Notes under the pieces: generated by a model
Seen by the model: the letters and a program-made list of their open reading frames with translations, nothing else
What the model was told of the DNA's origin: nothing
Databases searched by the model: none
Translations under genes and position numbers: made by a program
Part shown: in pieces, positions 3,082 through 25,835 of the stretch
How the letters are laid out: the number at the start of each line of letters is the position of its first letter
How positions within the stretch are numbered: the stretch's first letter is position 1
IMG/VR virus record: IMGVR_UViG_3300027759_000351
Span: 1 to 27,829 of that record
Source: a virus
DNA: 27,829 bases
Strand: one strand, 5' to 3'

Positions 3082-5034
3082 ATGACAATCAATAATAACA
3101 ATATATTTGGAGCATTTACACTTGGAGAAGTTCGTAGTGGACGACTGACTGGTGAGTGGTTGAATAAAGAATCCGTTGCGAACTATGGTTGGTTTGGTGG
3201 TGGTTATGCTCCAGCAGCAGTTCGTTCAACAGTAGACCGTATAGATTTTTCTAATGATTCTTCTACTGCATCTGTTAGAGGTTCATTAAGTTCAGCAAGA
3301 ACTAGTCTGTTTTCGACAGGAAACTCTAACTATGGTTGGTTTGGTGGTGGTCGTCTTCCAGCACAAGCATCAACAGTAGACCGCATAGATTTCTCTAATG
3401 ATTCTTCAACAGCATCAGTTCGTGGTCCATTAAATTCATCAAAAAATAATTTAGCAGCAACAGCAAACTCTAACTATGGTTGGTTTGGTGGTGGTAGTAA
3501 TGTTGTTCTTCCACTTACAGTATCATCAACAGTAGACCGTATAGATTTCTCTAATGATTTCTCAACAGCATCAGTTAGAGGTCTATTAAGTTTAGCAAGA
3601 TGTGCTTTATCAGCAACAGGAAACTCTAATTATGGTTGGTTTGGTGGTGGTATTTCTACAACACCAGCAACAGTTTCGATAGTAGACCGTATAGATTTCT
3701 CTAATGATTTTTCAACAGCATCACCAAGAGGTCCATTAAGTTTAGCAAGATATAATCCAGCAGCAACAGGAAACTCTAATTATGGTTGGTTTGGTGGTGG
3801 TAGTACTGCAACACCATCCCAACTATCAACAGTAGACCGTATAGATTTATCTAATGATTCTTCAACCGCATCAGTAAGAAGTCCATTAAGTTCAGGAAGA
3901 TATTCTTTAGCAGCAACAGGAAACTCTAATTATGGTTGGTTTGGTGGTGGCACTACTTCGCCACCATTGGTATCATTCTCAACAGTAGACCGTATAGATT
4001 TCTCAAATGATTCTGTATCAGTATCTGTTAGAGGTCCATTAAGTTCGGCAAGATATTTCTTAGCAGCAACCTCAGGAGTTCTCAATATTCGCAGACAAAA
4101 AGCAGGGAATTATGGTTGGTTTGGTGGTGGTACTGCTTCACCATTAATTTATTCGAGAGTAGATCGTATAGATTTTTCTAATGATTCTGTAACTTTATCA
4201 ATAAGAGGTACATTAAATGCCCCAGCAGGAAGATATTCTTTAGCAGCAACAGGAAACTCTAACTATGGTTGGTTTGGTGGTGGAAGATTGCCAACAACAT
4301 CAACAGTAGACCGTATAGATTTCTCTAATGATTCTTCCACAGCATCACCAAGAGGTCCATTAAGTTCAGCAAGATATAATTTGGCAGCAACAGCAAACTC
4401 TAATTATGGTTGGTTTGGTGGAGGTTATGTATCCCCACCAACTTCTCCAAGATGTATAACACTAGTAGACCGCATAGATTTCTCAAATGATTCTGTGTCA
4501 ACATCACCAAGAGGTCTATTAAGTGTTGCTGCGGGAAGATCTAACGTGGGGGCAACAGGAAACTCTAATTATGGTTGGTTTGGTGGTGGCGCTAATCCAA
4601 CAAGTAATGAAAATACCTCAATATCAACAGTAGACCGTATAGATTTTTCAAATGATTCTGCAACGGCGTCCCAAAGAACCAATTTATCAGATGTGAGAAG
4701 TTTTGTAGCAGCAACAGGAAACTCTAACTATGGTTGGTTTGGTGGGGGTGCTGTGAACAACTCATCAAAATCTACAACCACAATAGTAGACCGTATAGAT
4801 TTTTCGAATGATTCTATTCCAGTATTAGTTAGAAGTCCATTAACTATAGCAAGGAATTATGGGACAGCAACAGGAAACTCTAACTATGGTTGGTGGGCAG
4901 GGACTCCCACTATTCCTAATAATGCAATAGTAGAGCGCATAAATTTTGCAAATGATTTGGTATCTACAACAACAAGAGGTCCATTGAGTGCTGGAAGGTA
5001 TTCTTTAGCAGCAACCTCCAACACTAACAAATAA
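3082..5034 (+). CDS. Kelch-like repeat protein B, probable virion adhesin/tail fibre
   Basis: A complete 650-residue paralogue of the neighbouring repeat proteins. After a short 30-residue N terminus (MTINNNNIFGAFTLGEVRSG...) come twelve kelch-like units, each opening at NYGWFGGG and closing at RGPLSSARYxLAATGNS. Between units 6 and 7 the usual GNSN is replaced by a longer linker ending in RRQKAGN, splitting the array 6+6; this is compatible with two six-bladed beta-propellers in tandem. The last unit is degenerate (NYGWWAGTP) and the protein ends SNTNK, like a closing blade. Only the stretch directly after GWFGGG varies strongly between units (RLPAQ, SNVVLPLTV, ISTTPATV and so on), as expected of exposed binding loops on a constant scaffold. 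Virion location and receptor role are inferred. Confidence 0.88.
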   Translation: MTINNNNIFGAFTLGEVRSGRLTGEWLNKESVANYGWFGGGYAPAAVRSTVDRIDFSNDSSTASVRGSLSSARTSLFSTGNSNYGWFGGGRLPAQASTVDRIDFSNDSSTASVRGPLNSSKNNLAATANSNYGWFGGGSNVVLPLTVSSTVDRIDFSNDFSTASVRGLLSLARCALSATGNSNYGWFGGGISTTPATVSIVDRIDFSNDFSTASPRGPLSLARYNPAATGNSNYGWFGGGSTATPSQLSTVDRIDLSNDSSTASVRSPLSSGRYSLAATGNSNYGWFGGGTTSPPLVSFSTVDRIDFSNDSVSVSVRGPLSSARYFLAATSGVLNIRRQKAGNYGWFGGGTASPLIYSRVDRIDFSNDSVTLSIRGTLNAPAGRYSLAATGNSNYGWFGGGRLPTTSTVDRIDFSNDSSTASPRGPLSSARYNLAATANSNYGWFGGGYVSPPTSPRCITLVDRIDFSNDSVSTSPRGLLSVAAGRSNVGATGNSNYGWFGGGANPTSNENTSISTVDRIDFSNDSATASQRTNLSDVRSFVAATGNSNYGWFGGGAVNNSSKSTTTIVDRIDFSNDSIPVLVRSPLTIARNYGTATGNSNYGWWAGTPTIPNNAIVERINFANDLVSTTTRGPLSAGRYSLAATSNTNK

Positions 5035-6784: not shown

Positions 6785-9001
6785 ATGCCAGCAGGAGACG
6801 TATTTGGTCTTGATGGAATTTTTCTAAACAAATCAAATCCCATTACGGTTTCTGCTGTAGACATTAATTCTACTGCTGCTGGTGCTGGTATTACTGTTGT
6901 GAGTGGAGTTTTAAATGCTGCTGCTGGTATTGCGACTCTTACACTTTCAACTGCTGCTGGTCTTTCTACGACACCTTTTTATGTGGGTGCAAAGATTGCA
7001 GTTTCTGGTCTTTCTGTTTCTGGTGTAGCACATACTGGATATAATGGAAACTTTGTAGTCACAGGATTTGCAGGAACTACAACAGTTTCCTATGCGACTA
7101 CTGGTTATGTTGGTGGTGTGACTGCTGGTATTACCACAACTGGTAGAGTAATATTAGTGACTGATACGCAAGTCACAAATACTACTTGGAGTAGTGCTCA
7201 AACTCACGGTTGGTTAGGTGGTGGTAGAGCAGGTTCTCCGGTAGCAACAGTATCAACAGTAGAACGTATAGATTTCTCAAATGATACTGCAACTGCAAAT
7301 ATTAGAGGTTCATTGAGTTCGGCAAGATATAGAATGGGTGCAACAGGAAACTCTAACTATGGTTGGTTTGCTGGTGGTGGTCCGGCTAGTCCGTCAACAG
7401 TAGATCGTATAGATTTCTCTAATGATTCTTCAACAGCATCACCAAGAGGTCCATTAAGTTTAGGAAGACAACGTTTAGCAGCAACAGGAAACTCAAACTT
7501 TGGTTGGTTTGGTGGTGGATTTGCTCCAGCAACAGTTTCGATAGTAAATCGTATAGATTTCTCTAATGATTCTGGAACAGCATCACCAAGAGGTCCATTA
7601 AGTGCAATAAGAGAAAATTTATCAGCAACAGGAAACTCTAATTATGGTTGGTTCGGTGGAGGATCTCCAGGACCATTATCAACAGTAGACCGTATAGATT
7701 TCTCGAATGATGCTGCAACCGCATCAGTTCGTGGTCCATTAAGTTTAGCAAGAATTGCTTTATCAGCAACAGCAAACTCTAATTATGGTTGGTTTGGTGG
7801 TGGTGCAATACCAGGTCCTATATTTTATTCTATAATAAATCGAATTGATTTCTCTAATGATTCTGCAACAGCATCTGTAAGAGGTCCATTAAGTGCTGCA
7901 AAAGCATATCTAGCAGCAACAGGAAACTCTAATTATGGTTGGTTCGGTGGAGGATCTCCAGGACCATTATCAACAGTAGACCGCATAGATTTCTCTAATG
8001 ATTCTTCTACGGCATCAGTAAGAGGTCCATTAAGTGCAGGAAGAGGATACTTGGGAGCAACATCAGGACAGGCAAGGTCTTCAAGTATTCGTCTACAAAA
8101 AGCAGGGAATTTTGGTTGGTTTGGTGGAGGAGGTATTCCACAAGTAGCAACAGTAGATCGTATAGATTTCTCAAATGATTCGAGAACAGCATTAGTTAGA
8201 GGTTCGTTATCTCAAGCAAGATGGTTTTTAGCAGCAACAGGAAACTCTAATTATGGTTGGTTTGGTGGTGGTAATACTCCAACATCAGTGGCAACAGTAG
8301 ACCGTGTAGATTTTTCTAATGATTCTCCTGCTGGAGCATCACCAAGAGGTCCATTAAGTTCTGCAAGATATGGTTTAGCAGCAACAGGAAACTCTAACTA
8401 TGGTTGGTTTGGTGGTGGAAGAGGTGGTACTCCAATAGCAACTGTAGCAACAGTAGACCGTATCAATTTCGCAAATGATGCAATAACAACATCACCAAGA
8501 GGTCCTTTAAGTTCAGCAAGATATAATTTAGCAGCAACAGGAAACTCTAACTATGGTTGGTTTGGTGGTGGATATATTATATCTCCTCTCCCTGCAGTTA
8601 GAGCAACAGTAGACCGTATAGATTTCTCAAATGATTCGGTATCAGCATCACCAAGAAGTCCATTAAGTTCAGCAAGATATCGTTTAGGAGCAACAGGAAA
8701 TTCCAACTATGGTTGGTTTGGTGGTGGTAGCACTGGAGCACTATCAGCAACAGTAGACCGTATAGATTTCTCTAATGACTCTGTATCAGCAATTGCTAGA
8801 GGTTCATTATCTCAAGCAAAACAATCTTTAGCAGCAACAGGAAACTCTAATTATGGTTGGTTTGGTGGTGGTTCTATTCCAGCAACAACAGCAACAGTAG
8901 ACCGCGTAGATTTCTCTAATGACTCTGTAGCAACATCACCAAGAGGAGCATTGAGTTCAGCAAGAGGTGGTCCAGGAGCAACATCAAACACCCCAACATA
9001 A
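6785..9001 (+). CDS. Kelch-like repeat protein C with N-terminal virion-type domain
   Basis: A 738-residue adhesin paralogue with a strong ribosome site (AAGGAG, 7 bases before the ATG). Residues 1 to about 135 form a distinct Gly/Ala/Thr/Val-rich beta domain (MPAGDVFGLDGIFLNKSNP...) not found in protein B, perhaps the virion attachment domain. Twelve kelch-like units follow, from HGWLGGG to a C-terminal SNTPT. As in B, an insert (SGQARSSSIRLQKAGN) lies exactly between units 6 and 7, giving 6+6. Units 4 and 6 share the same variable loop (SPGPLSTV) with almost identical DNA, evidence of recent copying between units. Late-gene position and fibre role are inferred; structure prediction would decide whether it forms two propellers. 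Confidence 0.88.
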   Translation: MPAGDVFGLDGIFLNKSNPITVSAVDINSTAAGAGITVVSGVLNAAAGIATLTLSTAAGLSTTPFYVGAKIAVSGLSVSGVAHTGYNGNFVVTGFAGTTTVSYATTGYVGGVTAGITTTGRVILVTDTQVTNTTWSSAQTHGWLGGGRAGSPVATVSTVERIDFSNDTATANIRGSLSSARYRMGATGNSNYGWFAGGGPASPSTVDRIDFSNDSSTASPRGPLSLGRQRLAATGNSNFGWFGGGFAPATVSIVNRIDFSNDSGTASPRGPLSAIRENLSATGNSNYGWFGGGSPGPLSTVDRIDFSNDAATASVRGPLSLARIALSATANSNYGWFGGGAIPGPIFYSIINRIDFSNDSATASVRGPLSAAKAYLAATGNSNYGWFGGGSPGPLSTVDRIDFSNDSSTASVRGPLSAGRGYLGATSGQARSSSIRLQKAGNFGWFGGGGIPQVATVDRIDFSNDSRTALVRGSLSQARWFLAATGNSNYGWFGGGNTPTSVATVDRVDFSNDSPAGASPRGPLSSARYGLAATGNSNYGWFGGGRGGTPIATVATVDRINFANDAITTSPRGPLSSARYNLAATGNSNYGWFGGGYIISPLPAVRATVDRIDFSNDSVSASPRSPLSSARYRLGATGNSNYGWFGGGSTGALSATVDRIDFSNDSVSAIARGSLSQAKQSLAATGNSNYGWFGGGSIPATTATVDRVDFSNDSVATSPRGALSSARGGPGATSNTPT

Positions 9002-10242: not shown

Positions 10243-10866
10243 TTAATTAAATAAAAATTCTTGAATATATCTTTCAGTAAAATCTTTATTAAAATAAGAC
10301 TTTAAAATACCAAAAGCAGGATCATTTGATGACATATAACGATTAAAGTTATTGTGTTCGTCCTCAAATGATTGTTTTTTGGCAACAGAATTATATAAAC
10401 ATTTTTTATATTGATGCAAATAACATTTAATCATAATTTGATATTCATTATAAAAACATTCATTACCTTTTCTTATCCATAATTTATTAGTAAAATACTT
10501 ATTCAAGTCATAAAATTTAGATGTAGTTGTTTTTTTATCAGGAAACATTTCAATATAAGGAAAGTAATTCTCATTCTCATTAACAGGATGAAAGTCTATA
10601 GCACCAAAATACTTCTTATTACCAATCTTTAAATACTCTGTTCCAAATATTGGAGTATCATAACAATAGTCTGGATAGATTACTAAAGTTTCTGCTTGAA
10701 ACTTATTTTCAACATTTAATTCACATAGTCTTATAGATCTACAATGATTTGATTTAAATACATAAGACTTTAAGTTTGCAGCACCATTTGTAAATGATTC
10801 ATCTAACCACTCTGGAAGTTCTATTGAAGTTAAATTCAAAAACTCTCCAAGAACATTTTTTAACAT
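10243..10866 (-). CDS. Ferredoxin-dependent bilin reductase (PebS/PebA/PcyA family), divergent
   Basis: The only minus-strand gene. I chose the ATG at 10866 (207 residues), not the upstream GTG at 10926, because a consensus promoter overlaps that extension and places transcription start near 10888. Family features: YVFKSNHCRSIRL, LVIYPDYCYDTPIFG, FNRYMSSNDPAFGILKSYF and the C-terminal ERYIQEFLF, matching the order and spacing of ferredoxin-dependent bilin reductases, which reduce biliverdin to phycobilins. D182 (SNDPAFG) corresponds to the second catalytic Asp of PebS. In the DLPxFGxD motif, however, the final Asp is Glu (E77), and the residue 17 earlier (His in PcyA, Asn in PebS/PebA) is Thr60. 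It is also shorter than the usual 230-250 residues. So the product could be a reductase with altered specificity or a decaying gene. No heme oxygenase gene is in the window. Confidence 0.78.
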   Translation of the reverse strand: MLKNVLGEFLNLTSIELPEWLDESFTNGAANLKSYVFKSNHCRSIRLCELNVENKFQAETLVIYPDYCYDTPIFGTEYLKIGNKKYFGAIDFHPVNENENYFPYIEMFPDKKTTTSKFYDLNKYFTNKLWIRKGNECFYNEYQIMIKCYLHQYKKCLYNSVAKKQSFEDEHNNFNRYMSSNDPAFGILKSYFNKDFTERYIQEFLFN

Positions 10867-10894
10867 ACAATTTATCTTCAAACCCAACAGAGTG

Positions 10895-10923
10895 ATTTTA
10901 GACAGGTTTTGATATCTTGTCAA
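10895..10923 (-). promoter_or_regulatory. Sigma70-type promoter of the bilin reductase gene
   Basis: On the minus strand TTGACA (10923-10918), a 17-base spacer and TAAAAT (10900-10895) form a near-consensus promoter. Predicted start near 10888 gives a leader of about 22 bases to the ATG at 10866. Its -35 box is three bases from an oppositely oriented -35 box. Confidence 0.75.
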
Positions 10924-10926
10924 CAC

Positions 10927-19160: not shown

Positions 19161-19331
19161 ATGGAAAACCCTATGGAATTAAGCACCGAAGAATGGAAAG
19201 AATTGGTAGCACTGAAAGAAGCAATTAATTACAATCCAGCATCAGTTCATCCACAGAAGATGGAACTATTCACAGAACTTCTTGTAAGGTCTTGGAGTGA
19301 AAGAACAGAAGTTATGACCTTTGATAAATAA
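19161..19331 (+). CDS. Small protein of unknown function
   Basis: 56 residues, MENPMELSTEEWKELVALKEAINYNPASVHPQKMELFTELLVRSWSERTEVMTFDK, with a helical arrangement. It is separated from the upstream gene by 58 bases in which I see no clear promoter. Its stop codon lies in the loop of a terminator hairpin. Confidence 0.7.
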   Translation: MENPMELSTEEWKELVALKEAINYNPASVHPQKMELFTELLVRSWSERTEVMTFDK

Positions 19332-19353: not shown

Positions 19354-20043
19354 ATGATTTCTGAAGCAAGTAAGAGAGAAAAGATAGCAAATGCTGTTCT
19401 TGGTGCAACATTTGCATTAAGTGCGGCACAATCTCCTAAAGACTTTGTAAGAACAGGAAATATTGAAAGTCCTGGTGCTGCTCTGATGCAAACTTGGGGA
19501 AGAAAAAGAGGAGAAGCAGAAAGAAATCTAGATAGTGGTAGAGTTTCACATCCAGCAAGAAATAAAAAAATGAAGAAAACACTTAAAGAGTTTTTGGAAG
19601 AAGCATACCTTTACGAGATGCGTAAAGAAGATAAAGTCAAGGGGAAGCCAAAAACTCCTATGTATTTGGCAAGAACTTCGGGAAGTGTGAAAAAAACTCC
19701 AGAAGGTAAGTGGAAATTGGAGAAAATCCAACACGAGAGACCTAATCCAGATGCAGTGATAGGAAGAAGGCGTCAAGGAATGACACCTACACCTGGAGAT
19801 GCTCCACATCCAGGATGGGGAAGTGAGAGAGAGCAACTTCGCAGACATCCCCAAGGAGGTGGTGGAAGTGGTGCTAAAGACAATAAACCAGGTGAACTTC
19901 GTGGTAAGAAGAAAGTTCCAGGGGCAAAGGTAGAACGCAATTGGAATACCGATGGTCCAAGTCCACAAATGAAAGTGGGTTGGGCAAAATCAGCTAGAGC
20001 GAACAAAGGGAAGGATATTTTCAAAAAAAAATCAACACTATAA
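19354..20043 (+). CDS. Putative capsid-internal basic protein with internal capsid-targeting-like motif
   Basis: 229 residues, strongly basic, rich in Gly, Pro, Lys and Arg. The N terminus MISEASKREKIANAVLGATF contains I-S-E before A, and an inner segment from Met73 (base 19570), MKKTLKEFLEEAYLYE, looks like the capsid-targeting leader of T4 internal proteins. So either the true start is at 19570, or a 72-residue extension has been joined in front of the leader. The late-promoter-like box 23 bases before 19354 favours the longer form. The rest is low in predicted order and could bind DNA. Four bases separate it from the next gene of the same class. Function unknown; packaging into the capsid is inferred. 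Confidence 0.65.
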   Translation: MISEASKREKIANAVLGATFALSAAQSPKDFVRTGNIESPGAALMQTWGRKRGEAERNLDSGRVSHPARNKKMKKTLKEFLEEAYLYEMRKEDKVKGKPKTPMYLARTSGSVKKTPEGKWKLEKIQHERPNPDAVIGRRRQGMTPTPGDAPHPGWGSEREQLRRHPQGGGGSGAKDNKPGELRGKKKVPGAKVERNWNTDGPSPQMKVGWAKSARANKGKDIFKKKSTL

Positions 20044-20047
20044 TAGA

Positions 20048-21196
20048 ATGAAAACCTTTCAAGAGTTTATTACCGAAGCAAAGAAGTGCTGGCCTGGTTA
20101 TAAGAAAAAAGGCACCAAAAAACTATTTGGAAAGACGTATAATAATTGTGTAAAAGAAGGTAAAGTAGAGTGGGATAATCCAAAGAGACCTTTATCGTCT
20201 GGATTAACTCCAAGAGAAAAGAATAGAGCAAAAAGGATTTCTACTGGTGTGGAAAATCCAGATAGAATTCCAAGTGAAAGAGATTTGGAAAGATATGGGA
20301 AGTTAAAGATTGCTCACGATGATGAGAAAGGAAAGAAGGTTTCAAGAGGTAAGAGGCACGAGTTTAAAATAATAACTAATTGGGAAGGAAATCAATTAGA
20401 AACTGAAGGACAACAAGCAAGAGCATTTAAAGACCATAAAAATATTAAAAATCTAAAAGAACCAAAGGAAAGTTTTGAATATGAACTAGAAGAAAGTTCA
20501 ACTGGTGAAAGAAGTAGAGGACGAGCTACTTTAGGTCGTGCTGGAAATAAGATGGACCGAGGAGAAAGGTCTGTTGCTGCAATTGCAAAGAAAGCAGGAT
20601 TAAAAGGAACTGGTAAGTATTCCACTAAAGATTTGAGAACGAGAGCAAGAGATTATACAACTTATGATAGTGATGATGATATGGATGATATTGGAAGCAC
20701 AAAACAAGACCATTTCATTCGCACATATTCATCAGCAAGAAAGGCAGCAAAGGCTGAAAGACTTATTACTAAAATAAAACCAGCAGGAAGAAATGCATCT
20801 GGAATGACTAAACTTAAAACTTCACCTTCAAGTGAAAGTGTGAGAAAAGTAAAAGATTTGAAGAAGCAAATGACTAAAACAGGTGCTTCTAAAACTGGAA
20901 GAGTTCATACTGTAGATATTATGCACCGAGATGGTGATGTTGGTAAAGGTGATAGAAACCAACAGATGGAAAGAGGTAGAAACTTTATTCAAGCAATCAA
21001 AGATACTCCAAAACACTTGGAGAAAGCAGGAGCAAAGAAAGGTGATACTGTAATTGGAAAACCAACAGCAGTTATGCCTGGTGAAGATAAGAAAACTGGT
21101 GAAGCAAAACGAGCAAAGTTATATGGAAAGATTTTCGGTAAGAGAAGTAGTAAAAAATCCAATAAAACAGGATTGATGGTTGGGAAGGTAGATTAA
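20048..21196 (+). CDS. Putative capsid-targeted internal protein
   Basis: 382 residues. The N terminus MKTFQEFITEA is nearly the same as the MKTYQEFIAEA leader of T4 internal proteins IPII/IPIII, which is cut by prohead protease gp21 after Ile/Leu-x-Glu; the predicted cut here is ITE before A. A second segment CWPGYKKKGTKKLFGKTYNNCVKE follows, a motif I associate with cyanophage proteins. A further LEE-S site occurs near residue 150. The body is very basic (many Lys/Arg, Gly, Ser), suiting a DNA-associated protein carried in the head and perhaps injected. It overlaps the next gene through TAATGA-type coupling. No enzyme motif is recognised. Confidence 0.72.
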   Translation: MKTFQEFITEAKKCWPGYKKKGTKKLFGKTYNNCVKEGKVEWDNPKRPLSSGLTPREKNRAKRISTGVENPDRIPSERDLERYGKLKIAHDDEKGKKVSRGKRHEFKIITNWEGNQLETEGQQARAFKDHKNIKNLKEPKESFEYELEESSTGERSRGRATLGRAGNKMDRGERSVAAIAKKAGLKGTGKYSTKDLRTRARDYTTYDSDDDMDDIGSTKQDHFIRTYSSARKAAKAERLITKIKPAGRNASGMTKLKTSPSSESVRKVKDLKKQMTKTGASKTGRVHTVDIMHRDGDVGKGDRNQQMERGRNFIQAIKDTPKHLEKAGAKKGDTVIGKPTAVMPGEDKKTGEAKRAKLYGKIFGKRSSKKSNKTGLMVGKVD

Positions 21197-21495
21197 TGAA
21201 AACATTTAGAGAGTTTTTATACGAGGCATCTGCAACACAGAGATTGAAAATTGCAACAGCAAAGTTAATTGCAAAAAATCCAAAGAATTCTGTATATAAA
21301 ACTCTATTGAATAGAATTAAGGAAAGGCAAGCACCACTATATCCAGAGTATCCAGGAAGAGAATCTGCCAGAAAAGATAAGACCCTAATTCCATCTGGAA
21401 GAACATCAAGTTTTCCAGAACTTGAAGGAATATCTACAAGAACTAAAAATCCCAAGAAGTTAAGAAAACAAAGAGCATTAGGTGAGTTATCATAA
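21196..21495 (+). CDS. Putative capsid-targeted small basic protein
   Basis: 99 residues. MKTFREFLYEASATQR carries the same leader type, with predicted cleavage LYE before A at residue 10. The remainder is a basic helix (KIATAKLIAKNPKNSVYKTLLNRI) and a C-terminal TKNPKKLRKQRALGEL segment that recurs in the protein at 24686-25501. The start overlaps the previous stop by one base. Likely packaged with its neighbours; function unknown. Confidence 0.72.
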   Translation: MKTFREFLYEASATQRLKIATAKLIAKNPKNSVYKTLLNRIKERQAPLYPEYPGRESARKDKTLIPSGRTSSFPELEGISTRTKNPKKLRKQRALGELS

Positions 21496-21498
21496 ATA

Positions 21499-21506
21499 TA
21501 TAAATA
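21499..21506 (+). promoter_or_regulatory. T4-type late promoter (TATAAATA)
   Basis: Exact TATAAATA in an AT-rich run, 22 bases before the ATG at 21528. Confidence 0.7.
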
Positions 21507-21527
21507 AATACAAAACCATTTGTAGCA

Positions 21528-22100
21528 ATGAACTCACAAGAACTTAACAATCTTCACGAAGCTTATTTGGATGTCTACACAGATATTGATGAAGAGAGAG
21601 CAGAAGGTGTAAGACCTTATAAAGCAGGACCATCTCAAGCAGAAGTTAGAGCAGACGCAAAAAAATCAGAAAAAGCAAAAAAAGATAAAGATAAAGATAA
21701 AGCAGGTTATGGTCCTGAAGACAAGTTTAAGGATTGGAAACTTACTTCAACTCCAAGCACTGTCAATAAGAAAGGAGAAACGATTTCACAAAGAATGGAT
21801 AAAGAGGCACCATACAAGACAAGACCATTCTCTCCATTATTCACAAAACAGGGAAGTCGTACTGCTTCTGCTGTAACTAGAGCAACTGAAGGACCAGGTG
21901 AACCACAATCAGTTACAATGCCTAGAATGAAGTCAAAACCATCAAGAGAAATCGTTAGAAAAAATCTAAACAATTCTTATGATCTCTATGATGTAATCCT
22001 TTCATATCTTCTTGATGAAGGTTATGCTGATACTTTTGAAAGTGCAGAAGCAATTATGGTGAATATGAGTGAAGAGTGGAGAGAAAGCATCATCGGTTAA
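21528..22100 (+). CDS. Putative capsid-targeted protein with C-terminal DLYD/WRES module
   Basis: 190 residues starting MNSQELNNLHEAYLDVY, where LHE before A fits the gp21 site at position 12. The middle is Lys-rich and low complexity (KKDKDKDKAGYG). The last 40 residues, YDLYDVILSYLLDEGYADTF...MVNMSEEWRESI, form a helical module shared with the proteins at 22604 and 24686. An exact late promoter stands upstream and a strong terminator follows. This combination of late expression, leader and terminal module suggests a virion protein; the function of the module is not known to me. Confidence 0.72.
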   Translation: MNSQELNNLHEAYLDVYTDIDEERAEGVRPYKAGPSQAEVRADAKKSEKAKKDKDKDKAGYGPEDKFKDWKLTSTPSTVNKKGETISQRMDKEAPYKTRPFSPLFTKQGSRTASAVTRATEGPGEPQSVTMPRMKSKPSREIVRKNLNNSYDLYDVILSYLLDEGYADTFESAEAIMVNMSEEWRESIIG

Positions 22101-22121
22101 TACCACTTTCCAAACCGGCAC

Positions 22122-22146
22122 AAGACCCCACCAAGGGGTCTTTTTT
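22122..22146 (+). terminator. Rho-independent terminator
   Basis: AAGACCCC-ACCAA-GGGGTCTT with an immediate run of T. Stops the transcript of the 21528 gene; the next promoter begins within two bases. Confidence 0.92.
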
Positions 22147-22147
22147 A

Positions 22148-22156
22148 TGCTATGAT
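22148..22156 (+). promoter_or_regulatory. Extended -10 promoter of the DUF6717-like gene
   Basis: TGC-TATGAT, with an upstream CCACTTTCC...GGCACA element as at 23200 and 25516. It lacks the GGTAATCA block found at 23245 and 25564. ATG lies 21 bases downstream. Confidence 0.65.
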
Positions 22157-22176
22157 ATTGGAAAGACAACATTCTT

Positions 22177-22584
22177 ATGGAACTCACAATCGTTGCTTAC
22201 AAACTTGAAGATGGACTGTGGGCATTTGACCATCCTTATAACAATACAGTTCAAGAACTACTCCTAAACGGAACTGAAGAAGCAATTGACGAGCACTTTT
22301 ATTTTGGAACTGGACGACACGCAGTTGAAAAGGACCAAATGGAAATCATTTTGAATACAGAAGAACCTGATGATTATGATACTCTGCTTGTAAAAGAAGT
22401 TGGTGATGATGATGGAACGACTTATACTGATACAACACTTTGTTCTCCTGTGTGGTTGTGTAACTGGAACCAAGGATACTTTGGATTTGTGCCCGAAGAA
22501 CTTTATGTAAAAGTGCGTCCAATCAATAAGGGTTTGGAATCATTCGTGAAAAATACAGGTATGCGAGGTTTTTTGACTAAATAA
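22177..22584 (+). CDS. DUF6717-like protein
   Basis: 135 residues, MELTIVAYKLEDGLWAFDHPYNNTVQELLLNGTEEAIDEHFYFGTG... with WLCNWNQGYFGFVPEELYVKVRPINKGLESF near the end. The pattern of a short beta-sheet start, a WAFDH segment and an acidic middle recalls DUF6717, a family found in cyanobacteria and their phages; the call is from memory and moderate. It has its own extended -10 promoter, so it may be expressed early, unlike the late genes on both sides. Confidence 0.6.
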   Translation: MELTIVAYKLEDGLWAFDHPYNNTVQELLLNGTEEAIDEHFYFGTGRHAVEKDQMEIILNTEEPDDYDTLLVKEVGDDDGTTYTDTTLCSPVWLCNWNQGYFGFVPEELYVKVRPINKGLESFVKNTGMRGFLTK

Positions 22585-22603
22585 CTAAAAAGTATTTGTA
22601 AAG

Positions 22604-23197
22604 ATGAACTCACAAGAACTTCGTAGTCTTCAAGAAGCATATTTGGAAGTTGTTATGGGTGAAGAAAAGAGAACATTTCCATTTGAAAAAGTAAAAAATC
22701 AAATTAATAAAAAAGAACAACAAAGAAATCAAATTAGCAAGGATGAAAAAGAAGGTTTAATATCTTCAAGAAGAGCATTAGTAAAAAAAGCGGAAATGAG
22801 AAGACATTATGGACATATGCAGCATCATTTTGATAAAGCAAAAAAAGAAAGACAAGATATTAATGTTGAGAGAAGGTCTCCAACATTTTATGGAAAAGAT
22901 AAACAAAAAATGACTAAAACTCAAAGAGAACAAGTAGACCTCTACGACATCATTCTCTCACACCTTCTTGATGAAGGTTATGCTGAAACTCAAGAACAAG
23001 CAGAAGTCATTATGGTGAATATGAGTGAAGAGTGGAGAGAAAGTATTATGGAAGGAAATGTATCAAAAAAACAACAAAAAAAAGACGCAAAAACTAGAGA
23101 AAAATGGTATGGTGAAAAATCAATAGAACGTGGTACTGATAGGTTTTCTCAACTTCAAAAAAAAGCAATTGAATCTGGAAAGACTAAACTTTTTTGA
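22604..23197 (+). CDS. Putative capsid-targeted protein with C-terminal DLYD/WRES module
   Basis: 197 residues starting MNSQELRSLQEAYLEVVMGEEK, with LQE before A at position 11-12 as predicted prohead-protease site; the leader is nearly the same as in the 21528 protein. The centre is Lys/Gln/Glu-rich (KVKNQINKKEQQRNQISKDEKEG). A DLYDIILSHLLDEGYAETQ...MVNMSEEWRESIME module (about 112-151) is nearly identical at DNA level to the one in the 24686 gene, and a basic tail follows. A CTAAATA box upstream is only a weak late-promoter match. Confidence 0.7.
   Translation: MNSQELRSLQEAYLEVVMGEEKRTFPFEKVKNQINKKEQQRNQISKDEKEGLISSRRALVKKAEMRRHYGHMQHHFDKAKKERQDINVERRSPTFYGKDKQKMTKTQREQVDLYDIILSHLLDEGYAETQEQAEVIMVNMSEEWRESIMEGNVSKKQQKKDAKTREKWYGEKSIERGTDRFSQLQKKAIESGKTKLF
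22937..23058 (+). repeat. Direct repeat, copy 1 (DLYD/WRES coding module)
   Basis: About 120 bases encoding the DLYDIILSHLLDEGYA...WRESI module are nearly identical to 25180-25301. A more distant version lies at 21980-22095. The DNA-level identity suggests recent duplication or recombination. Confidence 0.8.
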
Positions 23198-23244
23198 ACC
23201 ACTTCCTGAACTGGCACAAGGTCCTCCCCAAGCACCCCAATCCG

Positions 23245-23267
23245 TGTTATGATTACAAGGTAATCAA
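23245..23267 (+). promoter_or_regulatory. Extended -10 promoter P3 of the first KTSC-like gene
   Basis: CACCCCAATCC, then TGT-TATGAT (23245-23253) and tacAAGGTAATCAA. An upstream CCACTTCCTGAACTGGCAC element is shared with the promoter at 25564. Predicted start near 23260. Confidence 0.75.
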
Positions 23268-23282
23268 ATGAATGGGGCACGA

Positions 23283-23513
23283 ATGGAAGTTCTTGAGATT
23301 AGCACCTCTGGTGCGATTGCTAAACTTTCTTTTAATGACGAAGACAACACTGTTGGTGTTGCGTACACTTACAAACCTGATAAGTTTTATGTCTTCAAGT
23401 GTGATAGTATTGAAGGTTTCAAAGGCAAACTTCGCAACACGTTTAATGCTGGAGAAAGTGTTGGTAAGATGATTTCTCAAATGAAGAAAGATGGTGTCCT
23501 TGTGACTGTCTAA
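23283..23513 (+). CDS. KTSC-like small protein, paralogue 1
   Basis: 76 residues from the ATG at 23283, MEVLEISTSGAIAKLSFNDEDNTVGVAYTYKPDKFYVFKC..., the same length as the paralogue at 25605, which lacks the alternative upstream ATG at 23268; that decides the start. Beta-rich with FxVFKCD and a closing K-D-G-V-L-V-T segment, resembling the KTSC family of small domains. Own promoter P3; tRNA-Met follows 15 bases after the stop with no terminator, so it is probably cotranscribed. Function unknown. Confidence 0.75.
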   Translation: MEVLEISTSGAIAKLSFNDEDNTVGVAYTYKPDKFYVFKCDSIEGFKGKLRNTFNAGESVGKMISQMKKDGVLVTV

Positions 23514-23528
23514 ATCTTTATTTTTTCT

Positions 23529-23600
23529 GCTCGTTTAGCAATCTAGGAATGCAATCGTCTCATAAACGATAGAAGGTCGGGGCAGAACCGACAACGAGCA
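23529..23600 (+). tRNA. tRNA-Met (CAT) with unusual T-loop
   Basis: Acceptor GCTCGTT/AACGAGC, D-arm with GG in the loop, anticodon stem ATCGT/ACGAT with loop CTCATAA, T-stem GTCGG/CCGAC. The T-loop is GGCAGAA rather than TTCRANY. All stems pair perfectly. Could be elongator, initiator or lysidine-type Ile; cannot be told from sequence. Confidence 0.75.
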
Positions 23601-23602
23601 TC

Positions 23603-23680
23603 GCCGTGGTTCAAAACTTTAGATAAGAGCAGTGGGGCACTTATCAAAAAGATTTGATTTGGATTCACAACCACACGGCA
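23603..23680 (+). ncRNA. Repeated structured element next to a tRNA, copy 1
   Basis: 78 bases from GCCGTGGTTCAAAAC to CCACACGGCA, starting two bases after tRNA-Met. The ends pair (GCCGTG/CACGGC), and the centre is an imperfect hairpin around the loop CAGTGGGGC. The second copy is at 27017-27095, two or three bases after tRNA-Tyr. Most differences fall in the central stem. No protein reading frame. Class unknown. Confidence 0.7.
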
Positions 23681-23683
23681 CAC

Positions 23684-23712
23684 TTGACTATTGTGATTCT
23701 TTGAGTTATGAT
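23684..23712 (+). promoter_or_regulatory. Sigma70-type promoter of tRNA-Leu
   Basis: TTGACT (23684-23689), 17-base spacer, TATGAT (23707-23712). Predicted start near 23719, six bases before tRNA-Leu. Confidence 0.7.
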
Positions 23713-23724
23713 AGTCTTATACAC

Positions 23725-23797
23725 GGGCGTGTAGTCCAGCGGCAGAGACAGGGCGCTTAAAACGCCTACAGGGTCGGTTCGAATCCGACCACGCCTA
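23725..23797 (+). tRNA. tRNA-Leu (TAA) with a short variable loop
   Basis: 73 bases. Acceptor GGGCGTG/CACGCCT, anticodon stem GGGCG/CGCCT with loop CTTAAAA (anticodon TAA), T-arm GTCGG-TTCGAAT-CCGAC, discriminator A. The variable loop is only five bases (ACAGG), unlike the long arm of ordinary leucine tRNAs, so charging with Leu is not certain. Confidence 0.82.
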
Positions 23798-23818
23798 TTA
23801 TATAATAAAAAAAGTTAT

Positions 23819-24658
23819 ATGAAACAGTTTCCATTAAAGACGGCCTTAAGATATCCCGGAGGCAAGAGCAAAGCACTCAAAACACTTGCTCCTTGGTTTC
23901 CTAGTGATTTCAAAGAGTTCCGTGAACCCTTCTTGGGTGGTGGAAGTATTTCTTTAATGGTTTCACAGAACTACCCAAAAGTTCCTATCTGGGTCAACGA
24001 CAAGTATTTTTACTTGTATAACTTTTGGGTTCAACTTCGTGATAATGGACAAGTTCTCAAAGATAAACTAAGAGCAATCAAAGAAGATGTGAATGGTGAT
24101 GATAACGCACACCAAGAACTCTTTGATGATTACTCTCATACGATTGGTAATCTTGAACCATTAGAACAAGCAGTTGCGTTCTTTGTAATGAATAAGTGTT
24201 CTTATTCTGGTCTTACAGAGAACTCAACATTTTCAGTTCAAGCATCACGGTCCAACTTCTCATTAGTTGGTATTGATAAACTTCCTAGGTATTCTTATAT
24301 CATTAAGGACTGGAAGATTACAAACATTGACTATGAAGAAGTAATGAACGCAGAGGGTGATGATGTGTTTGTATTTCTTGACCCACCTTATGATATTAAG
24401 GATTTCCTTTATGGAACTGGAAGAAAACTTCACTCATCATTCTCTCACGAAAGATTTGCTGATGATGTGGATAAATGCCCTCATCGTTTTATGATTACTT
24501 ACAATCTTAATGATTGGATATTAAGTCGTTATAAAGAGTATAATATAGATGAATGGAAGTTGAGGTATTCTATGGTTCATCGTGGTGAGAAAGGAACACA
24601 AGATAATGTGAAAACCGAGTTGCTGATTACGAATTATAAACTTGATACAGTTTTATAA
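23819..24658 (+). CDS. dam: DNA adenine N6-methyltransferase (Dam/D12 class)
   Basis: 279 residues with the D12-class motif order: RYPGGKSK near the N terminus, PFLGGGS (37-43) for S-adenosylmethionine binding, and DPPY (188-191) as catalytic motif. Typical sister genes methylate adenine in GATC and protect phage DNA from restriction or affect replication timing; the site recognised is not known. It stands between tRNA-Leu and the capsid-protein gene at 24686. An exact late promoter for that gene overlaps its stop codon. Length normal for the family; the ATG at 23819 has no strong ribosome site but fits the family N terminus. Confidence 0.88.
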   Translation: MKQFPLKTALRYPGGKSKALKTLAPWFPSDFKEFREPFLGGGSISLMVSQNYPKVPIWVNDKYFYLYNFWVQLRDNGQVLKDKLRAIKEDVNGDDNAHQELFDDYSHTIGNLEPLEQAVAFFVMNKCSYSGLTENSTFSVQASRSNFSLVGIDKLPRYSYIIKDWKITNIDYEEVMNAEGDDVFVFLDPPYDIKDFLYGTGRKLHSSFSHERFADDVDKCPHRFMITYNLNDWILSRYKEYNIDEWKLRYSMVHRGEKGTQDNVKTELLITNYKLDTVL

Positions 24659-24661
24659 ATA
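24654..24661 (+). promoter_or_regulatory. T4-type late promoter (TATAAATA)
   Basis: Exact TATAAATA overlapping the methyltransferase stop, 24 bases before the ATG at 24686. Confidence 0.7.
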
Positions 24662-24685
24662 CTTTGATAGAACTGTAAAAAGCAA

Positions 24686-25501
24686 ATGAATTATAGGGAC
24701 TTACAAAACATTTCAAATCTTTCTCAAGAAATTTTAATTGAGGGAGCAAATGAAGACCACAACGTGCTGAACCGTTGGCCTTATACTTCTCCTTATCTTC
24801 AAGAATCAACTGAACTTGATGAAGGTGCTTCGGAAGACGTTGCTGCTAGATCCGAAAAACTTGCAAACCAAAGAAAGGGACAAACCCCCCAAAGAAAAGC
24901 AATGTATAAGGGACTTGCACTTAACGCAAGAATTCGTGCTTCTGGAGGAAATCCTGGAGATAAACCACAGGGACATCCTTTAAGAAAAGCATCTAATAGA
25001 CCTATTCGCCCCCACGATAGTGAGTATGGTAGATCTGGTTTAACTCAATCTGAAAGAGATGAAAGAAGAGATATAGATGCCGCAACTCATGGTGAGTATA
25101 GTGATGGTCCTGGAACAAAAACCAAAAATCCCAAAAAACTCCGTAAGCAAAAAGCGATGGGAGAGATTGGTGAAAGTTATGACCTTTACGACATCATTCT
25201 CTCACATCTTCTTGATGAAGGATATGCTGAAACACAAGAACAAGCAGAAGTCATTATGGTGAATATGAGTGAAGATTGGAGGGAAAGTATTGTGGAAGGA
25301 ATGAAACCACTTCCTGTGGGTAAAATGATTAAGCAGGCTGCAAGGCATAGCAACCCAGAACAAGTTACAAAAATGGCCAAGGTTGCAGATACTCATAATC
25401 CTAACAAGTCCCAAAGAAAAGAGGACGATAATAGAAGAGAAGGTGGTCGTAAAAGAGAAGCAGGAAGACCTAGGAGAAATGAACTTCAAGATAATTGGTA
25501 A
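24686..25501 (+). CDS. Putative capsid-targeted protein with DLYD/WRES module
   Basis: 271 residues. The N terminus MNYRDLQNISNLSQEILIEGANE has LIE before G (about residue 20), and further sites YLQE-S and LDE-G follow within 50 residues, so it may be cut several times by the prohead protease. A basic segment TKNPKKLRKQKAMGEI (about 146-160) recurs in the 21196 protein, and the DLYDIILSHLLDEGYA...WRESI module (about 166-205) in the 22604 protein; a basic tail follows. It seems a mosaic of modules used by its neighbours. Preceded by an exact late promoter. Function unknown. Confidence 0.7.
   Translation: MNYRDLQNISNLSQEILIEGANEDHNVLNRWPYTSPYLQESTELDEGASEDVAARSEKLANQRKGQTPQRKAMYKGLALNARIRASGGNPGDKPQGHPLRKASNRPIRPHDSEYGRSGLTQSERDERRDIDAATHGEYSDGPGTKTKNPKKLRKQKAMGEIGESYDLYDIILSHLLDEGYAETQEQAEVIMVNMSEDWRESIVEGMKPLPVGKMIKQAARHSNPEQVTKMAKVADTHNPNKSQRKEDDNRREGGRKREAGRPRRNELQDNW
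25180..25301 (+). repeat. Direct repeat, copy 2 (DLYD/WRES coding module)
   Basis: Second copy of the module described at 22937-23058, differing by scattered, mainly synonymous changes. Both are followed within about 300-500 bases by a KTSC-like gene with a shared promoter, so the duplicated unit may include both. Confidence 0.8.
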
Positions 25502-25604: not shown

Positions 25605-25835
25605 ATGGAAGTTCTGGAAATTTCAAATTCTTCTGCAATCGCAAAGATTTCATTCAACTCTGAAGATAATGAAGTCGGGGTGGCATATACTTATAAACCG
25701 GATAAGTTTTATGTCTTTAAGTGTGATGACCTAGTTTCAGTTCAAGACCAGATTAAAGTTGCTGATAGTGTTGGTAAACTAATCTCTGACCTCAAAAAAG
25801 ACGGAACTCTGGTAGCTATCTCTACATCTGTATAA
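25605..25835 (+). CDS. KTSC-like small protein, paralogue 2
   Basis: 76 residues, MEVLEISNSSAIAKISFNSEDNEVGVAYTYKPDKFYVFKC..., clearly the paralogue of the protein at 23283: residues 1-45 are nearly the same, the rest diverges. Small beta-rich KTSC-like domain; such domains are found singly in many phages and bacteria, with no assigned function. Its promoter is nearly that of the paralogue. The two copies suggest either dosage or specialised partners. Confidence 0.75.
   Translation: MEVLEISNSSAIAKISFNSEDNEVGVAYTYKPDKFYVFKCDDLVSVQDQIKVADSVGKLISDLKKDGTLVAISTSV

Follow-up and report, generated by a model that had tools for sequence, protein, structure and literature searches.

The closest described counterparts of the proteins discussed here are the internal proteins of phage T4. 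In T4 IPIII, mutational work has shown that leader residues 4 and 7 are needed for targeting, and residues 8 and 10 for processing (PMC9026906); Ip1-3, which have only the leader in common, inhibit GmrSD enzymes, a different one in each case (PMC12373910). T4 also packages in its head the ADP-ribosyltransferase Alt, whose propeptides at both ends are cut by gp21, and in the giant phages phiKZ and SPN3US the ejected head proteins include many that a gp21-like protease has cut after E (PMC9026906). Packaged effector enzymes are known, too, as polyvalent head-packaged effectors (PMC9503650). None of this is new in itself: the capsid targeting sequence (CTS) is established for T-even phages, and effectors packaged in the head have been described. 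We found no description of a leader-based cargo system in cyanophages: a full-text search for 'capsid targeting sequence' together with 'cyanophage', with subscription papers outside its reach, returned only the T4 head review PMC9026906. For the abundant T4-like cyanophages, virion proteomes yield lists that offer no means of separating injected cargo from contamination. The virion-associated regulatory proteins of S-CREM2, S-SCSM1 and S-CRM01 (SAM hydrolase, APH/ChoK-like kinase and NMNAT-like proteins) bear leaders and are of the same kind as the proteins below; the accessible parts of the papers that describe them give no leader or packaging mechanism, and leave carry-over open.

A locus for six leader-bearing proteins

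We analysed a 27.8 kb fragment of a freshwater T4-like cyanophage, an IMG/VR record (hereafter the window, meaning the whole of this stretch). Sequence inspection located six plus-strand ORFs, P1 to P6, with the motifs that a preliminary description had assigned to them. We interpret these genes, with a probability of about 0.8, as encoding late-expressed head cargo that is trimmed by gp21 and co-injected with the DNA: a set resembling the T4 internal proteins but richer in leaders and far richer in cargoes. Neither gp21 nor gp23 lies within the 27.8 kb; for these we turned to relatives, of which 31 IMG/VR loci are the nearest and the freshwater phage S-SRM01 is the nearest isolate that we found.

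The resemblance to the T4 internal proteins extends to a late promoter, a mosaic locus, a conserved leader before unrelated mature parts, an origin in gp21-bearing T4-like phages and, for P1-P3, basic bodies. The differences are that here there are three leader families, that the bodies are larger and built of several modules, that one of these (MSEEW) recurs, and that enzymes carry the tag too. In Pfam and PHROGs, the mature parts have no sequence homology to T4 internal proteins, and the six bodies match neither a function nor an anti-defence protein; none resembles a known anti-restriction protein. Homology to the mature parts does not define the family, because the T4 internal proteins are not related to one another outside the leader (PMC12373910). 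As with Alt, the tagged cargo includes enzymes that would be packaged in the head, but no ADP-ribosyltransferase domain is detectable in the window proteins with Pfam or PHROGs. Alt is not known to have a CTS of the MKTF type. The ejection proteins of giant phages and the polyvalent effectors differ in phage group, cleavage motif and propeptides.

P1, P2 and P3 carry a T4-like leader

P2 (20048-21196; 382 residues, strongly basic) begins with the type I leader MKTFQEFITE/A (20048-20077; the slash marks the predicted cut), which is followed by a CWPGYKKKG module, a KVEWDNPK module and a conserved basic domain (20495-21193, residues 150-382) that starts after ELEE/SS. The start of P3 (21196-21495; 99 residues, basic) overlaps the P2 stop, and its leader is MKTFREFLYE/A. 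The CTS of T4 IPI, IPII and IPIII has the same register: a hydrophobic residue at 4, F7, a hydrophobic residue at 8, E10 and then A. The likeness to the IPII/IPIII leader that was first noticed in P2 thus holds at all four residues mapped in IPIII, for P3 as well as P2, with A or G after the cut. The T4 internal-protein profile phrog_2667 ('internal head protein') matches only the first 20-23 residues, and weakly; for P2 residues 1-20, E=0.013. Across 14 aligned P2 homologues, the core of the leader is invariant, an insert varies from 0 to about 220 residues, and the conserved domain begins at ELEE/SS. Mean confidence in a structure model of P2 is 59, although 138 residues of the conserved domain have pLDDT values of 70-90; a fold search with this low-confidence model returned no solved relative, its sole match being an S-SRM01 protein. 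S-SRM01 itself encodes two tandem P2 homologues (L323:22315-24158) that start MKTFQ[EQ]FQESA: F4 and F7 are kept and the LxE cut site is lost.

In P1 (19354-20043; 229 residues), the tag MKKTLKEFLEE/A (19570-19602, residues 73-83) is preceded by a 72-residue extension and followed by a basic body of the MRKEDKVKGK family; relative to the T4 CTS register it is internal and shifted by one residue. The extension starts with MISE/A, which in relatives is MLSE/G or MLNE/A, and in other relatives, such as L011, L012, L018 and L020, the tag is N-terminal. Promoter position indicates that the tag of P1 is truly internal, as had been proposed: the late promoter core ATAAATA (19324-19330) lies 30 nt before 19354, whereas in relatives that lack the extension it lies 25-31 nt before the tag itself. 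Both forms of P1 thus have ATAAATA 25-31 nt before their start, and this spacing is conserved in 15 of 16 relatives examined (the element is missing in L005). A P1 start at 19570 was considered and rejected, since the conserved promoter speaks against it.

All six proteins had been described as basic; this is so for P1, P2 and P3 (net charge about +20, +41 and +14) and not for P4, P5 and P6 (-2, +8 and +1). The basic P1-P3 could bind DNA.

P4, P5 and P6 carry two other leader families

The claim of T4-like leaders throughout the set also divides at P3: P4 and P5 share one separate leader family and P6 represents another, so that these three proteins, which lack the T4 CTS, are not assigned by sequence to the T4 internal-protein family. 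The type II leader of P4 and P5 is M[DN]S[KQ]ELxxLxEAY. P4 (21528-22100; 190 residues) consists of MNSQELNNLHE/A, an xDEERAxGVxPY body and a C-terminal MSEEW module (21975-22097). P5 (22604-23197; 197 residues) has MNSQELRSLQE/A, a body, an MSEEW module (22934-23053), IME/G and a second short body. P6 (24686-25501; 271 residues) has a type III leader, MNYxDLQNISxLSQxILxE/[AGS], which here reads MNYRDLQNISNLSQEILIE/G...RWPYTSPYLQE/S (its start ending SQEILIE/G); a body, an MSEEW module (25175-25297), IVE/G and a second body follow. Nine homologous type III leaders precede bodies that differ. In both families, sequence comparison suggests that the leaders behave alike, in that the leader stays constant, bodies are swapped and one body may stand behind different leaders.

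The MSEEW module (phrog_3708; about 42 residues) occurs in 113 distinct contexts across the loci analysed. It is either terminal, ending SIIG, or internal, ending SIxE before a new body, and it is possibly a second targeting or packing element.

Candidate cleavage sites and the capsid protein of relatives

Candidate prohead-protease sites, [LI]xE[AG], are present in all six proteins: they total 12, against 1.6 expected from composition-preserving shuffles (p<=5e-4), while the count in the 21 other window proteins, 7 against an expected 4.9, shows no excess. For P4-P6, the surplus is owed partly to the C-terminal module LLDEG...MSEEWRESIxEG, the E-G of which may have a structural role. The residue before the cut (the P1 residue of the cleavage site) falls at 8-20 in 6/6 proteins when protein P1 is read from 19570, in at most three of the six in every one of 20,000 composition-preserving shuffles, and in 0/21 of the other window proteins.

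The proposal that these sites be compared with that of the major capsid protein was followed in a close relative, contig G003, which encodes a P2 homologue with 78% identity together with both gp21 and gp23. G003 gp23 has SGSFLTE/AVPT at residue 57, a site of the same kind; the corresponding sites are GLLTE/A in S-CREM2 and SFLAE/A in S-SCSM1. The site proposed in P1-P3 is therefore the one that phages of this lineage would be expected to have in their capsid protein. Leader contigs contain gp23 in 5/16 cases versus 0/7 for contigs with a Q10 control tag, but these contigs are too fragmentary for the difference to be weighed.

Late promoters precede the tagged genes

Besides the element before P1, the window has three T4-type ATAAATA cores at 21492-21510 (24-36 nt before P4), the variant CTAAATA at 22577-22583 (27 nt before P5) and ATAAATA at 24655-24661 (31 nt before P6), all on the plus strand. 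We infer from these elements that the six genes are expressed late, from promoters that serve single genes or an operon. In relatives, ATAAATA lies upstream of 79/81 type II genes (98%), nearly always at 26-35 nt, versus 108/585 other ORFs of the same loci (18%). It stands 30-36 nt upstream of every one of the nine type III genes, [ACT]TAAATA precedes 53/83 type I genes versus 135/549 other ORFs, and most of the cargo genes tested in S-CREM2 and S-SCSM1 have a late promoter. Given this association, the exchanged unit seems to be promoter, tag and body together.

Tags and bodies in related viruses

A scan of IMG/VR found the type I tag in at least 120 stretches; complete scans with control tags found 19 for Q10, 14 for D10 and 50 for L7. 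Among the matches listed, the tag is at or near the ORF start in 83 of 85 proteins examined, the body is net positive in 68 of 77 complete proteins, and the 83 proteins with the tag at the ORF start form 44 body clusters. These bodies include an NMNAT with a zeta-toxin-like kinase, GNAT, DPBB/RlpA, DUF5661, DUF6267 and a 5'-deoxyribonucleotidase-like protein. The type II leader had at least 120 matches.

The mosaic character attributed to the set is borne out by the alignment of P2 homologues, by the body clusters and by the comparison of type III leaders: leaders are constant and bodies are exchanged, even between close relatives at one locus. A KV[EP]W body follows type I leaders in P2, L002, L007 and L018 and a type II leader in L195; the ERAxGVxPY body of P4, which has a type II leader in the window, has a type III leader in L008, L009, L018 and L140.

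We asked whether protease sites also mark the junctions between bodies. With a narrow window at BLAST boundaries, a conserved [LIVM]xE was present in 71/1439 pairs (4.9%) versus 13.8% in controls, and a second narrow-window count (27/822 versus 9.4%) was again below its controls. As alignments begin a few residues before the junction, the window was widened, and the count became 41/214 versus 5.5% (p=2e-12); this choice was post hoc, for which reason the polyprotein idea is kept as a speculative reading.

Some individual proteins may be mentioned here. One tagged protein of 426 residues (L061:11230-12507, IMG/VR) has a cytidylyltransferase-like domain fused to a zeta-toxin-like AAA kinase, and similar proteins occur in L068 and L096. 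L065:3736-4149 has a weak match to RNA 2'-phosphotransferase. Inspection by eye suggested ADP-ribosyltransferase-like folds in L078, L112 and L074, which a search did not confirm.

Leader-bearing proteins in cyanophage virions

Leader-bearing proteins have been detected in virions of four related phages: S-CREM2, S-SCSM1, S-SM1 and S-CRM01. For S-CREM2, published mass spectrometry identified 52 virion proteins (PMC10665884). Of its 219 proteins, the five with the strict register M..h..Fh.E are all virion proteins, versus 47/214 of the others (p=6e-4): a SAM hydrolase, an APH-like kinase, a cytidylyltransferase and two unknowns. The pattern M..[FYL]..F[LI].E, derived from T4 and the window alone, gives 4/4 (p=0.003). 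When the motif may lie at any position within the first 30 residues, the result is 6/7 (p=8e-4), but this looser pattern was itself shaped on the S-CREM2 data. Several of the leader-bearing virion proteins are represented by many peptides; the authors note that carry-over is possible after CsCl purification (PMC10665884).

The GenBank record of S-SCSM1 marks 48 virion proteins (the paper says 45), which include a type I NMNAT (gp91) and a type II protein (gp89). One of its two strict type I proteins, gp30, is encoded near the head genes and is unmarked; leader proteins are so few in this phage that the type I test on its own is not significant here (p=0.31). Degradation of a core protein in the head might account for the absence of gp30 from the virion list. 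The cytidylyltransferase of S-SM1, which starts MKKFSAFLNE/A, was reported in virions (PMC3037559), as was the kinase of S-CRM01, which starts MISFDQFLSE (PMC10665884). By leader family, type II thus has one virion-detected example (S-SCSM1 gp89) and type III has none. We found no report of a cleaved N terminus in accessible cyanophage data.

Two other virion proteins have sequences of this sort. S-CREM2 gp12 (L052:7704-10313), which is Cas9-like, has RFASFMAE/A near its N terminus, at about residue 18-19, and this suggests a putative head-packaged nuclease. S-SCSM1 gp93 (L319:6626-6835) is a basic protein of 69 residues with a C-terminal tag-like sequence, KKRTFKEFLEYIE.

A proposed route into the host, and its alternatives

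We propose that each cassette would be transcribed late from a T4-type promoter, singly or as an operon; that the tag, N-terminal or (in P1) internal, would send the protein into the prohead core; that a gp21-type protease would cut after [LI]xE and so release the body; and that the bodies would remain amid the packaged DNA and accompany it into the cyanobacterium. Beyond the T4 scheme, this route would involve at least three tag families, a large choice of exchangeable bodies and the MSEEW module, which recurs. Head targeting and cleavage, which the preliminary description had predicted, are well supported, though indirectly, by the CTS residues, the late promoters, the capsid-protein site of a relative, the virion proteins of relatives and the mosaic bodies behind constant leaders; for the six window proteins themselves both steps are predicted by analogy. 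Injection, and a role of the window bodies in host takeover or against host defences, are more speculative.

The leader-bearing proteins might instead be components of the prohead scaffold or core, like T4 gp67 and gp68, that are used in assembly and then degraded, with no injection. One such protein is indeed encoded near head genes, close to gp21 in G003 (MKSFKQFISESVNIAGDF) and in S-SCSM1 as gp30, which is unmarked in virions; yet a scaffold is difficult to reconcile with bodies that are enzymes (NMNAT, GNAT, DPBB, 5'-deoxyribonucleotidase-like, SAM hydrolase, kinase), that vary between close relatives at one locus and several of which are found in virions with many peptides. We regard this explanation as unlikely. 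Slightly less probable still is that the proteins are external or tail-associated accessories, docked by an amphipathic N-terminal helix that no protease cleaves. Virion presence by itself does not locate a protein, the S-SRM01 homologues retain F4 and F7 without a cleavage site, and the residue after E10 is E, Q, D or F in some S-CREM2 leaders, all of which would suit an uncut helix; the preference for E at position 10 (at least 120 for E, 19 for Q, 14 for D) and a capsid-protein site of matching sequence point rather to the prohead protease. Finally, the bodies are of low complexity and rich in E and K, and the MSEEW module supplies part of the site count, so the motif could arise incidentally from such disordered sequence, or reflect shared ancestry of one gene family. 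This is very improbable: composition-preserving shuffles yield just 1.6 sites, the leader is common to 44 body clusters among the matches listed, and the Q10, D10 and L7 controls are rarer.

If the cargo reading of the six genes is right, the tag would explain why a SAM hydrolase, a kinase, a nucleotidyltransferase and a Cas9-like protein are found in virions. The tags recur on several dozen unrelated proteins from related viruses of aquatic habitats, and so may reveal what is injected; for any phage of this type, tag and late promoter in the sequence would serve to predict the injected proteins, and tagged cargo would point to undescribed host defences. Tentatively, and at less than even odds, we extend this to aquatic T4-like phages in general: at least three interchangeable head-address tags, each with its own late promoter, might form a code that can be read from sequence and serve to load dozens of unrelated effectors, some of them short bodies joined by protease sites, such that one gene would give several injected peptides.

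Other features of the window

The window also encodes a peptidase (phrog_459), a CobS/MoxR-type ATPase, a D12 adenine methyltransferase, eleven tRNAs and three long proteins (322-1623, 3082-5034 and 6785-9001) composed of NYGWFGGGxxPxxxSTVDRIDFSNDSxTASxRGPLSxAR repeats, which are probably tail fibres or adhesins. The adenine methyltransferase adjoins the cassettes and is compatible with a role against restriction; we give it little weight because such enzymes are common in these phages. A candidate ORF of 227 residues with a GTG start (10243-10926, minus strand) is oriented opposite to the adjoining genes. After the P5 and P6 cassettes come two small paralogous ORFs (23268-23513 and 25605-25835; MEVLEISxSxAIAKxSFN), as if they had been duplicated along with them.
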